IMG/VR virus record: IMGVR_UViG_3300025771_000012
Coordinates: 62,001-126,000 of that record
Strand: one strand, 5' to 3'
Origin: a virus
DNA: 64,000 bases
The stretch's first letter is position 1; the number at the start of each line of letters is the position of its first letter. Below the pieces are notes generated by a model, which saw only the letters and a list, made by a program, of their open reading frames with translations, did no database searches and was not told the origin of the DNA. This document shows, in pieces, positions 37,526 through 58,782 of the stretch. A program made the position numbers and the translations under genes.

Positions 37526-37861
37526 GCGAAATCCAACTGATGTATCTTCATATTCAAAATCATGATCTGCACTAATATCACTGTAAAGAGAAAGTGCAGG
37601 AGATACTGCATATGAAACTCCTAAATTAACACCGTCAAAATTAATTGTATCAGATGCTAAGTTACGATCATATGAAAAATCTGCCCATGGGCGTAGCACC
37701 AATCCTTGTGGAAGTGCCATTGTGTATCCTAATTCAGATGTAAATTTTTCATTTTCCAAACTATATTCAACTTCGCCATCTACATGGCCTCTAATTCCTT
37801 CTGCCATTGCAGATGTGCATAAAAAAACCGCCGAAGCGGCCCCGAATAAAAACTTTGTCAT
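37514..37861 (-). CDS. Small outer-membrane beta-barrel-like protein
   Basis: 115 residues. Signal peptide MTKFLFGAASAVFLCTSAMA with cleavage after AMA, then alternating strands and a C-terminal phenylalanine (SVGFRFTF), the usual outer-membrane sorting signal. It is too short for a porin (about six to eight strands) and recalls OmpA/Lom/Ail-like barrels that phages use to alter the host surface. The ATG is only some 20 bases after the tmRNA 3' region, so both may come from one transcript. Confidence 0.72.
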   Translation of the reverse strand: MTKFLFGAASAVFLCTSAMAEGIRGHVDGEVEYSLENEKFTSELGYTMALPQGLVLRPWADFSYDRNLASDTINFDGVNLGVSYAVSPALSLYSDISADHDFEYEDTSVGFRFTF

Positions 37862-37877
37862 TTATTAAATCCTTTTA

Positions 37878-38175
37878 CTATGACTGCGGGCCCGTTTGGT
37901 AACAAGGTGGAACCCATACCCCGCTGATCATGCTGCTAGAGCAAACTCAGGTGCAAAGTTATCGTTTGCGTTTAGTTTTGTTCGACCGAATATCGTAGGT
38001 CAACACGGTAATCTACTCTCATCTCTACACACCTGTCGATCCTAGTTCGCCCCCATCATAAACACACCCTGCGTAGTCTTCTACGGTAATCCGTTGGGAA
38101 CCTTACTGCGCCTTACGGATGTGCTTATGGTGGAGGCGTTGGGTACTGCCCCCAAGTCCAGTATGTATGTTGAAT
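37878..38175 (-). ncRNA. ssrA: tmRNA, two-piece circularly permuted (ssrA), phage-encoded
   Basis: In minus-strand order the acceptor piece comes first and ends in an encoded CCA at 38128. Its T-arm has stem TTGGG/CCCAA (38139-38155). A 73-base intervening segment (38055-38127) follows, then the coding piece starting GGGGGCG at 38054. GGGGGCG pairs with CGCCTCC into a 7-bp acceptor stem with the G3-U70 pair that alanyl-tRNA synthetase needs. The tag frame starts GCA at 37967 and ends TGA at 37928: ANDNFAPEFALAA, close to the alphaproteobacterial tag. Outer ends are approximate. tmRNA rescues stalled ribosomes and marks products for proteolysis. Confidence 0.9.
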
Positions 38176-38195
38176 CGTATCAACAATTACAACTG

Positions 38196-38226
38196 TATTT
38201 ATACACTATTCTTTTCTTTTTGTCAA
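38196..38226 (-). promoter_or_regulatory. Dual promoter of the tmRNA gene (sigma70-type and late)
   Basis: Minus strand TTGACA (38221-38226), 17-base spacer, TATAAA (38198-38203). The same -10 lies within TATAAATA (38196-38203), the late-promoter consensus. Early and late transcription could therefore start at the same place. Confidence 0.75.
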
Positions 38227-38403
38227 GCAAAAAATAATATAAAAAATATAATGTATTAATACAACACCAAAAAACTCATACATTACTATATTTTTTTCTG
38301 GTGTAAATATCATTAAACTTTTTCCAAATAAACCCAAGAGGAATAGAAGGATAAAGTAAGAAGACATGGGGATACTTATAAAGTAACCCCAACTTATTTT
38401 CAT
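38206..38403 (-). CDS. Two-span membrane protein, holin candidate
   Basis: 65 residues. Two hydrophobic stretches (about 7-32 and 42-60) and a charged end (CLTKRKE). The start overlaps the stop of the endolysin as ATGA. A small two-span protein next to a murein peptidase is the usual holin-endolysin layout. Holin identity rests on size, topology and neighbour only. The tmRNA promoter lies in its 3' end. Confidence 0.6.
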   Translation of the reverse strand: MKISWGYFISIPMSSYFILLFLLGLFGKSLMIFTPEKNIVMYEFFGVVLIHYIFYIIFCLTKRKE

Positions 38404-39556: not shown

Positions 39557-40354
39557 TTAAAAAAAACTATCAATCGTAATATCTGCCTTATATCTTGCAA
39601 TATTACTCTTATTATGTTTTATATCATTACTATGAATGAACGGCATATCATCACACCATTCGTATTCTGTTTCGCCGGGCCTTTTAATTTTCCATTGCAA
39701 ATCTTCATCCTTTGGATATTGATTTGTCCAACAACATGTAGAATTTCTATTCATATATTTTCTATCTGTCTTAGTCAATGGATAGATATATCTGAACTGT
39801 TTACCCCAAACTCTTGAAAACCCCATATCACCCATTTTGGCGTCATTTGGTCGAGGGCCATACTTCGTATCATGTCTACCCATCTCTTTCTTCATCTTCC
39901 TCTGTATAGTCCTAAAATGTACCTTCTCGCCTGTTTCAGAGACATATACATCAGACCATATAAAACCACCATAAAGAAAGTTTGCAGACTGGTAAACATA
40001 TCCTGGCTTTCCAACTATTCCATCTGCCCAAGTGTACAGATATTTTGCATTTGTATTTTCACGCATCCACTTTACTGTTTGGGACAACATTTGGGATTCG
40101 GAGTTTCTAGGCATAGAATCATCCATGCACATCTTTCCAATTTCAAAGTAATCAGAAGTTGTCAAATCTGGAAACATTTTTTTAATTGTTCCCATCGGAT
40201 TGGTTCCCCATCCTAAAGTTAAAACCCCAACTAACTTATCATCTAAGTGAAATCCTAGATAATGTTTAGTTAGTCGAGGCATAACTGCAGAATAATGGCG
40301 TTCTGCAACAAATACAGAAGCATTATTCTTGTGAAGGGGTCTTATATCATACAT
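39557..40354 (-). CDS. Mom-like/GNAT-fold protein, possible DNA-modification enzyme
   Basis: 265 residues. MYDIRPLHKNNASVFVAERH YS (residues 1-22), LGFHLDDKLVGVLTLGWGTN and KYLYTWADGIVGKPGYVYQS ANFLYGG (about 105-131) resemble the Mom family, a GNAT relative that in phage Mu adds a methylcarbamoyl group to adenine to protect DNA from restriction. It starts where the peroxiredoxin gene stops (overlap of one base). Whether this protein modifies phage DNA is inferred from family only. Confidence 0.6.
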   Translation of the reverse strand: MYDIRPLHKNNASVFVAERHYSAVMPRLTKHYLGFHLDDKLVGVLTLGWGTNPMGTIKKMFPDLTTSDYFEIGKMCMDDSMPRNSESQMLSQTVKWMRENTNAKYLYTWADGIVGKPGYVYQSANFLYGGFIWSDVYVSETGEKVHFRTIQRKMKKEMGRHDTKYGPRPNDAKMGDMGFSRVWGKQFRYIYPLTKTDRKYMNRNSTCCWTNQYPKDEDLQWKIKRPGETEYEWCDDMPFIHSNDIKHNKSNIARYKADITIDSFF

Positions 40355-55747: not shown

Positions 55748-56167
55748 TCAATCATTTAGTTCTCTCTTTGTCGAATATAATGCAGCAGCATTTCTCATGA
55801 TATTAGGATCATCTCTTAGATTACTCATACCAGTATTGCATATATGACAAACCCAAGCAATAAACTTTCCTGTCTTATGACAATGATGCAAGACGAAATC
55901 TTGTCTCCACTTCACATAACCCTTTTCTCTCATATCGTCTACACTATCATGACAGGCAGGACAACGATATGTTCTTATATCTGGTTTTGGATGCAACTTC
56001 TTCAAGATCTTTAATTGACCTTCTGATTTCTTTCTACACTCTTTGCACTTGCTACGAACATATGTCGTATCCATAGCAAATTCATTGAGAGGTTTACTTT
56101 CTCGACATTCACTACATTTCCTACATGCAATCTCTATAGATTCACCAAAAACATCTACGACTTGCAT
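55748..56167 (-). CDS. Endonuclease VII-like (gp49-type) HNH nuclease
   Basis: 139 residues. Zinc pairs CRKCSEC and CKECRKK (about 15-43) and CPACHDSV, then VLHHCHKTGKFIAWVCHICN and TGMSNLRDDPNIM, the His-Asn catalytic core of the endonuclease VII family. T4 gp49 resolves branched DNA before packaging. The N-terminal zinc part resembles phage HNH proteins that cut DNA, so it could also be a homing-type nuclease. Confidence 0.78.
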   Translation of the reverse strand: MQVVDVFGESIEIACRKCSECRESKPLNEFAMDTTYVRSKCKECRKKSEGQLKILKKLHPKPDIRTYRCPACHDSVDDMREKGYVKWRQDFVLHHCHKTGKFIAWVCHICNTGMSNLRDDPNIMRNAAALYSTKRELND

Positions 56168-56738: not shown

Positions 56739-56767
56739 ATTATAGAGAAAGTACTTCACAATGTCAA
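56739..56767 (-). promoter_or_regulatory. Perfect sigma70-type promoter
   Basis: Minus strand TTGACA (56762-56767), 17-base spacer, TATAAT (56739-56744). It drives the group ending with the endonuclease VII-like gene. Confidence 0.88.
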
Positions 56768-56830: not shown

Positions 56831-58351
56831 TCAGGTCAAATTGACAGAACCCATTGATCTATTCTCCCCAGAGTCTTGAAGAACAAGATTCTCAGTAGAG
56901 TTAGATCCCCCATTATGTTTAGAGACTATGTGTCCTCTATCCAAGTTGTTTAGGTCACGAACAGAAATACGATTTCCTTTTGAGTCTTTTCGATTGTTCG
57001 TTTCCCATACGACTTCTTTCTGTGGCATTGGCATTGAAAGAGCTGCATCAATAACGATGTTGTCACTTTTCAAATGTTCCTCATTTTCGATGAATTTTTT
57101 GCAGAGCAATTCTACTCGACAACGAATAAACTCATCTTTGATTTCAGAACATGCCCAGAAGAAACCATTCGGTACTTTTGTGGGTGTTGGTAGTCTTACC
57201 CCATTTAAATCATGAGTAATGCGTCCATCAGGATCTTCTCTCATTGATTTTTGTGCGGCATCATACTCTTTCACAAAACCTTCTACATCTTTTATTTTCC
57301 ATAGGGGGGTCGTAATATCCGCATACACTCGATTGTCTAGTTGATAACGGAAATAGATGTAGTTTCGTACCATTACATTGTTATACTGTTTTGCAGAAGT
57401 CATGGTTTTCATTCCCATTGCAAATTCACGAAGATAACGTCTTACTTGATCTACTTGGGATTTTGTCACATTCTCCATACCAGAAAACATGAGTTCATGA
57501 GCACCGATTTTTGAAGAAGATGGTTGTGTACCTTTCGCAATCCAGTAAAACACTTCTGACAAGAACAATTCGTGTCCTGCAAGTTCTTCACTATATGTTT
57601 TCCCAGAAAGACTTTGTAATGCAGTAATTGCAACTTTGTCTTCAAGAATTGATGTTAATTGACGGCGATACGTTGAGAACCAGAAACGTGTAATCATTTT
57701 TTGCCATTCTGTCCATGGGTATCCTTCATTTTTCGCAATCAATGCATTTACGAGTTCTTGAATATCTCCCTCTTCTGCAACCATGTACAACAATTCGATA
57801 TTCATAAATGCATCTTGAAGAGATTCATGCAAATCTTGATAAAGTTTTCCTTGTGCAAACTCCACAATTTTTCCATTCTCATCTACAATTGGAATATCTG
57901 TAGCACCAAGAGGAAATTCGTTGTTGATAAACGGAACAATCGCATTTAAAATTCGGTTTTGTCCGTCAATGATATAGTTTTCAACACCACCGGCAACATC
58001 TTTTCGAATTTCTTCAATCTCCTGTGCAAGAGCAGTTTTCCGTTCTTTTTCGATAGTGCGGTCGTGATCGTTGATTAATCCTTGCAATAGAAGGTTCGCA
58101 GGCACAACGATAATTTTGTCCAAGAATTCCAATCCTTGAATTACAGTGTTGAGATAGGACTGCCTACGATGGTTGTCCCATGCATCTGTTTGTAGTTTTC
58201 GTTGAAGTAATCCTGCAGCAGTTGATAATACTGCATATGAAGTGTTGTCTCCAGCTTCATCTTTTATTGGTGATGCAAGTTTGTGTAAATCACCAACAGT
58301 AATAGTTTCCAGAAAAAATCTAGTTTTTTTTGCGAATTGTAGCTTTGACAT
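56831..58351 (-). CDS. DUF262-HNH two-domain protein (GmrSD/ParB-nuclease-like)
   Basis: 506 residues. The N-terminal domain has GGVENYIIDGQNRILNAIVP, the DUF262 (ParB-like) nucleotide-binding motif, here DGQNR rather than DGQQR. The C-terminal end has LDRGHIVSKHNGGSNSTENL and VLQDSGENRSMG, an HNH nuclease core. DUF262 plus HNH is the layout of type IV restriction enzymes such as GmrSD, which cut modified DNA. In a phage it could attack host or rival DNA or act at a specific site. It is by far the largest gene of the right half. Confidence 0.75.
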   Translation of the reverse strand: MSKLQFAKKTRFFLETITVGDLHKLASPIKDEAGDNTSYAVLSTAAGLLQRKLQTDAWDNHRRQSYLNTVIQGLEFLDKIIVVPANLLLQGLINDHDRTIEKERKTALAQEIEEIRKDVAGGVENYIIDGQNRILNAIVPFINNEFPLGATDIPIVDENGKIVEFAQGKLYQDLHESLQDAFMNIELLYMVAEEGDIQELVNALIAKNEGYPWTEWQKMITRFWFSTYRRQLTSILEDKVAITALQSLSGKTYSEELAGHELFLSEVFYWIAKGTQPSSSKIGAHELMFSGMENVTKSQVDQVRRYLREFAMGMKTMTSAKQYNNVMVRNYIYFRYQLDNRVYADITTPLWKIKDVEGFVKEYDAAQKSMREDPDGRITHDLNGVRLPTPTKVPNGFFWACSEIKDEFIRCRVELLCKKFIENEEHLKSDNIVIDAALSMPMPQKEVVWETNNRKDSKGNRISVRDLNNLDRGHIVSKHNGGSNSTENLVLQDSGENRSMGSVNLT

Positions 58352-58482: not shown

Positions 58483-58782
58483 TTATGCAGCTTGTGCAGC
58501 CAATGCCCTATAACCAGCAGCAACAACTGAACGAGGTGGAGTACCAAGACGATAGAAAGTCTTAGGAGTACCAAGACGATAGAAAGTCTTAGTGCGTCCC
58601 TTAGTATCAGTGTGCTGGTTTGCAAAAATTGCAAAACCCTTCATACGAAGGCTAGATACTGTTGCACGAGCATTTCCAACCTTGAATTGGTTTTCAATCT
58701 GAGCAGCAGTCAAACCTTTATCATTACTACGAAGAGCCTCAAGGACTCGATCTTGTTTTGTCACAACATTTGCATTAGTCAT
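58483..58782 (-). CDS. Winged-helix-like DNA-binding protein
   Basis: 99 residues. VLEALRSNDKGLTAAQIENQ FKVGNARATVSSLRMKGFAI (residues 13-52) reads as a winged helix. The segment after the wing, KTFYRLGTP, appears twice in a row because of an in-frame 27-base duplication (58538-58591). A palindrome stands between its promoter and start, so self-regulation is likely. Alanine-rich C-terminus. Confidence 0.7.
   Translation of the reverse strand: MTNANVVTKQDRVLEALRSNDKGLTAAQIENQFKVGNARATVSSLRMKGFAIFANQHTDTKGRTKTFYRLGTPKTFYRLGTPPRSVVAAGYRALAAQAA
58538..58591. repeat. 27-bp perfect tandem duplication, in frame
   Basis: Copies start at 58538 and 58565; nine residues (KTFYRLGTP) are doubled in the winged-helix protein. 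Confidence 0.92.

Follow-up and report, generated by a model that had tools for sequence, protein, structure and literature searches.

A new virus-borne variant of the DUF262-HNH nucleases, predicted from the genome of a T4-like phage

In the window, by which we mean the whole 64,000-nucleotide stretch of DNA analysed here, the minus strand encodes at positions 56831-58351 a protein of 506 residues (ATG start) that joins an N-terminal domain of the DUF262 type to a C-terminal HNH-like core and that we found in 26 viral loci. Our verdict is that this protein is a new, virus-borne variant of the DUF262-HNH nucleases. Bacteria are known to use DUF262-HNH enzymes as weapons against phages whose DNA is modified. 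We put at about even chances the reading that the phage protein is an NTP-gated, modification-sensing HNH nuclease of the working type of GmrSD, BrxU and SspE, directed against competing phage or host DNA; its NTPase and nuclease activities, its sensing of modification, its dependence on a mark and its targets are predicted from sequence and from analogy with the bacterial enzymes.

The open reading frame is real and not a chance occurrence, since the frame at the same locus is unbroken in four other IMG/VR contigs (83-100% amino acid identity), its dN/dS of 0.14-0.39 indicates purifying selection, and both the DGQNR motif and a GH...GG.N...Q....N core are retained in relatives at about 30% identity. 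No positive selection on the gene was seen in the dN/dS analysis. Its surroundings are small minus-strand genes. A sequence-only reading had described a large DUF262-HNH gene among small genes, with DGQNR in its N-terminal half and an HNH core at its very C-terminus, and each part of this description held. Close by on the same strand, an endonuclease VII-like HNH gene (55748-56167, minus strand) is replaced in locus L001 by a different endonuclease VII-like gene, the two having their first 13 residues in common, and is missing in L004. A perfect sigma-70-type promoter consensus, TTGACA-17-TATAAT (56739-56767, minus strand), lies immediately downstream of the nuclease gene and points towards the small genes that follow. 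A winged-HTH protein (58483-58782, minus strand) carries in the window a short in-frame duplication, KTFYRLGTP twice, that is not present in relatives.

The N-terminal domain (about residues 40-235; 57647-58234, minus strand) is of the DUF262/GmrSD_N-like, ParB/Srx-type sensor kind, an assignment supported by profile-profile comparison, by Foldseek on the predicted model and by motifs. With the window protein alone, direct family and profile scans including hmmscan did not find DUF262, the hmmscan score against PF03235 (DUF262/GmrSD_N) lying under the Pfam curated cut-off. A PDB sequence profile search returned chance matches only. When alignment A4 of the family (17 sequences, of which row L043 ends before the C-terminal core) was compared by hhalign with four bacterial DUF262 proteins, the two matched over residues 120-217 with a probability of 96.7 and an E-value of 4.6e-10. 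The tblastn matches on plasmids, all of them weak, were all DUF262 proteins and aligned at residues 126-219. A first fold built from five near-identical sequences was discarded (pLDDT 34); the AlphaFold2 model built from A4 reached a pLDDT of 83.4 and a pTM of 0.75. Foldseek returned 13 viral matches for this model at E<1e-3, mostly DUF262/GmrSD_N proteins; the top solved structure was SspE (6jiv), a weak match at E 0.064. Viral DUF262/GmrSD_N proteins of giant viruses, of phages GAP32 and CcrPW and of others in BFVD thus share the sensor fold by Foldseek, but their identity in the structural alignments is only 10-18%, and tblastn detected no relation to named phage records.

Three motifs mark the domain. 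The QR pair, Q50-R51 (58199-58204, minus strand), is invariant in the family, as is DGQNR at residues 129-133 (57953-57967, minus strand; IIDGQNR in its longer form in the window protein), a putative nucleotide-binding signature and family-specific variant of DGQQR, a motif whose role has been described (PMC4619093, PMC13251355). The third is LxxxN (L204...N208; 57728-57742, minus strand) within LI[AW]KNEG, likewise invariant and the counterpart of FxxxN in GmrS; in A4 the invariant positions are Q50-R51, D129GQNR133 and K207-N208-E209. A mostly helical middle region (residues 236-456; 56984-57646, minus strand), delimited from the secondary structure of the model, joins sensor and nuclease; it varies most between alleles at residues 281-400. 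At the C-terminus, an HNH/His-Me-finger-like core of the form D-x-G-H...N/D...Q...N (residues 471-498; 56858-56941, minus strand) reads D471-R-G-H474 ... N488 ... N497-R498 in the window protein and is followed by only 8 residues. H474 is the presumed general base. The HNH assignment is supported by weak profile matches (Pfam HNH, Endonuclea_NS_2, IscB and Cas9d-HNH) and by the GH...GG.N...Q....N core, which is nearly invariant at the C-terminus in A4.

These parts stand in the same order as in three bacterial systems, in which a DUF262 NTPase gates an HNH nuclease according to the modification state of the DNA: SspE, GmrSD and BrxU (PMC13251355, PMC10952713, PMC4619093). GmrSD and BrxU cut modified DNA (PMC10952713), and the phage protein resembles them in having a DUF262 sensor, a helical linker and a C-terminal HNH, together with the QR, DGQ-R and (F/L)xxxN motifs. 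Against GmrSD, QR is present, (I/V)DGQQR is replaced by DGQNR and FxxxN by LxxxN. The phage protein differs in that its minimal HNH ends the chain, in being found here only in viruses, and in lacking a match to DUF1524, whose GmrSD signature is (E/D)H...NLxLLxxxN...NxxFxxKK; the family has the HNH core, but NxxFxxKK is absent from its HNH region. The proposal of a GmrSD-type nuclease therefore stands in part only: the joining of a DUF262-type domain to an HNH and its GmrSD/SspE-like order are upheld, as is a DUF262/GmrSD_N domain by profile-profile comparison and Foldseek, but the protein is not GmrSD proper, since DUF1524/GmrSD_C (PF07510) had no match in any of the 21 carrier records. In SspE, a phosphorothioate-sensing nickase, the DUF262 domain senses the mark and hydrolyses GTP by means of the arginine of DGQQR, and the HNH is thereby licensed to cut (PMC13251355). 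SspE also shares with the phage protein a single chain with an N-terminal DUF262 domain bearing DGQ-R and a C-terminal HNH, and we count as a further likeness that the modification with which it cooperates is encoded in its own genome; it is longer, however (about 770 residues against 506), and the phage protein has DGQNR and is phage-borne. The phosphorothioation genes PAPS reductase and DndB had no match in G000, G004, G012 or G014.

The family was collected by an HNH pattern scan followed by stepwise profile scans, down to 28-30% identity. Its 26 viral loci span 28-100% identity and include near-duplicate contigs and some fragments, leaving about 19 distinct sequences. We found no relatives in 84,980 prokaryote genomes by two pattern-then-tblastn scans of limited sensitivity, nor in 50,697 named phages by tblastn with three family members as queries, likewise of limited sensitivity, where the sole weak match, to query L021, was a virion structural protein. 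The window protein itself found no DUF262 relative among phages by tblastn even at E 10. At this sensitivity the family appears to be confined to viruses.

The virus record from which the window comes is 135,728 bases long and belongs to a T4-like marine phage (gp32, a gp59 loader and a T4 baseplate protein are present), with a gp32 closest to those of cyanophages at about 55%. The phage has five tRNAs and a permuted tmRNA of alphaproteobacterial type (37837-38230, minus strand; tag ANDNFAPEFALAA), which by itself would suggest an alphaproteobacterial host; Melnitz, a phage of OM43, also has a two-piece tmRNA (PMC9004378). A gene that had been put forward as a Mom-like candidate (39557-40354, minus strand; 265 residues) proved to encode a genuine Mom DNA-modification enzyme: it matches PF25680 at E 1.9e-48, scoring 165 bits where the cut-off is 27, and the Mom-like PHROG at 5.7e-39, and is 73% identical to a protein of Methylophilales phage Melnitz that is annotated there as DUF465/hypothetical. 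Apart from Mom, no DNA-modification enzyme was recognised in the phage of the window, family scans finding no N6_N4, D12, C5 or Dam methyltransferase in G000 or G004. The suggestion that Mom and the nuclease form a matching pair gains no support. The two genes lie 16.5 kb apart; Mom recurs in the 128.9-kb relative G004, the two occur together only in the close relatives G000 and G004, the Melnitz phages, which are the nearest named Mom relatives, have no such nuclease, and many other carriers have methyltransferases in place of Mom. Mom is a possible functional partner of the nuclease, and the weaker idea that the nuclease cooperates with its phage's own DNA modification gains some support from other lineages.

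In 10 of 22 loci an SPPY-type methyltransferase-like gene (c2) lies near the nuclease gene, and in seven of these ten a single methyltransferase or GNAT gene separates the two; in L042 the nuclease directly follows a D12 N6-adenine methyltransferase. A reciprocal scan found c2 at more than 400 loci, of which 80 were kept and the 61 with at least 1.5 kb downstream assessed. The nuclease was present in 4 of the 61, by which we reject an obligate partnership with the methyltransferase; because c2 is so common and so seldom accompanied, the linkage to modification genes is partly a linkage to a shared insertion slot. In the other c2 loci this slot, before UvsX, is empty or filled by different genes, among them c29, which is ParB-like (PHROG 723, E 3e-6), and c36, read by eye as GIY-YIG and with weak homing-endonuclease matches. 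Both occupy the same methyltransferase-adjacent position as the nuclease but bring a different nuclease or none, and we detected no sequence relation between c29 and the DUF262-HNH family. ParB-like motifs seen by eye in c36, c42, c47 and c63 were dropped; we limit the ParB-like claim to c29, since neither hhalign of c36 and c47 against c29 nor PDB searches gave support. The same locus is common in T4-like marine phages, often adjoining the gp43 polymerase (L027, L029, L033, L035, L046, L049 and L057-L133), in the order methyltransferase-like gene, variable enzyme (GNAT, second methyltransferase, PLP enzyme or Asp/Asn-hydroxylase-like), variable slot (ParB-like, GIY-YIG-like or DUF262-HNH genes) and UvsX. 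This methyltransferase-gp43-UvsX locus resembles a hot spot for DNA hypermodification. Beside its methyltransferase and PLP genes, L093 (8515-9954) and L095 (4561-6003) each carry a gene that by eye is asparagine-synthetase-like and reminiscent of the CmoY amide ligases that take part in hypermodifying phage DNA (PMC12783734).

Near relatives swap the nuclease gene as a gene-length cassette. Most of L025 outside the gene is 92-100% identical to the window, against 75-93% inside it (58400-56800), whereas L026 is about 99% identical inside and 60-99% outside, a pattern which indicates that the gene was replaced by recombination near its own borders. Nuclease and polymerase identities correlate pairwise with a Mantel r of 0.63, a value helped by near-identical pairs, and are clearly discordant for some pairs, such as L040-L042 (polymerase 81%, nuclease 39%) and L032-L044 (44% and 40%).

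How would such a protein act? The DUF262-like domain would bind and hydrolyse a nucleotide at DGQNR and read the modification state of the DNA, the helical middle would relay the signal, and the minimal HNH would nick or cut; during infection, its targets would be DNA marked unlike the phage's own, whether of co-infecting phages or of the host chromosome. As the phage protein shares its components and their order with SspE, GmrSD and BrxU, we consider NTP-gated HNH cleavage its likeliest way of working. An enzyme that cut Mom-marked DNA would harm a phage that makes Mom, so an SspE-like logic in which the own mark is present and unmarked DNA is cut, or one directed at foreign marks, is likelier than plain GmrSD logic. 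Counting against modification sensing are the near-invariance of GmrS at the position where DGQNR differs from DGQQR, the weak HNH profiles, the abundance of c2 without the nuclease and the occurrence of Mom without it.

Variable location and cassette exchange also count against modification sensing, as they fit a homing element too. A free-standing, homing-type selfish endonuclease, which would cut a site near replication genes in co-infecting phages without the gene and spread by repair, taking its own gene with it, is in our estimate unlikely, though it is the main rival: the nuclease is accessory and patchy, it lies near gp43, UvsX, gp41 or gp45 in different lineages, its exchange borders fall at gene ends, its identities are partly discordant with those of the polymerase, and its slot is elsewhere filled by the GIY-YIG gene. 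Patchiness, exchange and closeness to replication genes are the pattern expected of a homing gene, and phage HEGs are known to lie close to essential genes and where exchanged segments end (PMC10448857). Against homing, Pfam, PHROGs and NCBIfam scans matched no HEG-specific nuclease or DNA-binding module, only the weak HNH-like core; the sensor motifs show no less conservation than that core, and the position varies by lineage, marking no single target site. A DUF262 domain bearing a conserved DGQ-R motif is not known among homing endonucleases.

We regard as less probable still an early nuclease that degrades the unmodified host genome, functionally like T4 endonucleases II and IV, with phage DNA shielded by Mom or methylation. 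The gene does sit among small genes of a presumed early region, and many carriers have modification genes; however, it is accessory rather than core, Mom modifies just a fraction of the adenines, and family scans showed no relation to T4 DenA or DenB. Least probable of all, we judge, is a non-nuclease accessory of DNA modification, in which a DUF262/ParB-like domain directs or controls the enzymes of modification and the HNH serves for binding only or is vestigial. For it speak the ParB-like c29 in the same methyltransferase-side slot of other genomes and the ParBc proteins of unknown function that accompany phage cytosine carboxymethyltransferases (PMC12783734); conservation of the HNH core, including H474, at about 30% overall identity speaks against it.

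Returning to the modification-sensing nuclease, we tentatively extend it: T4-like marine phages may carry exchangeable modification-plus-nuclease modules, each pairing a variable set of modification enzymes (either Mom or an SPPY methyltransferase accompanied by a GNAT, second methyltransferase or PLP enzyme) with a variable nuclease or ParB-like gene, DUF262-HNH being one such. These modules would give the phage a self/non-self system of its own for destroying the DNA of competitor phages or of the host. We hold this wider proposal to be doubtful, if possible. If a virus-only family of DUF262-HNH enzymes is present in phages that carry DNA-modification genes themselves, phages too would employ the logic of the bacterial enzymes, whether against one another or against the host, which raises the testable question of whether a phage's own mark licenses or blocks its own nuclease. 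The common methyltransferase-adjacent slot with its interchangeable nuclease and ParB-like genes is a place to seek more such systems.
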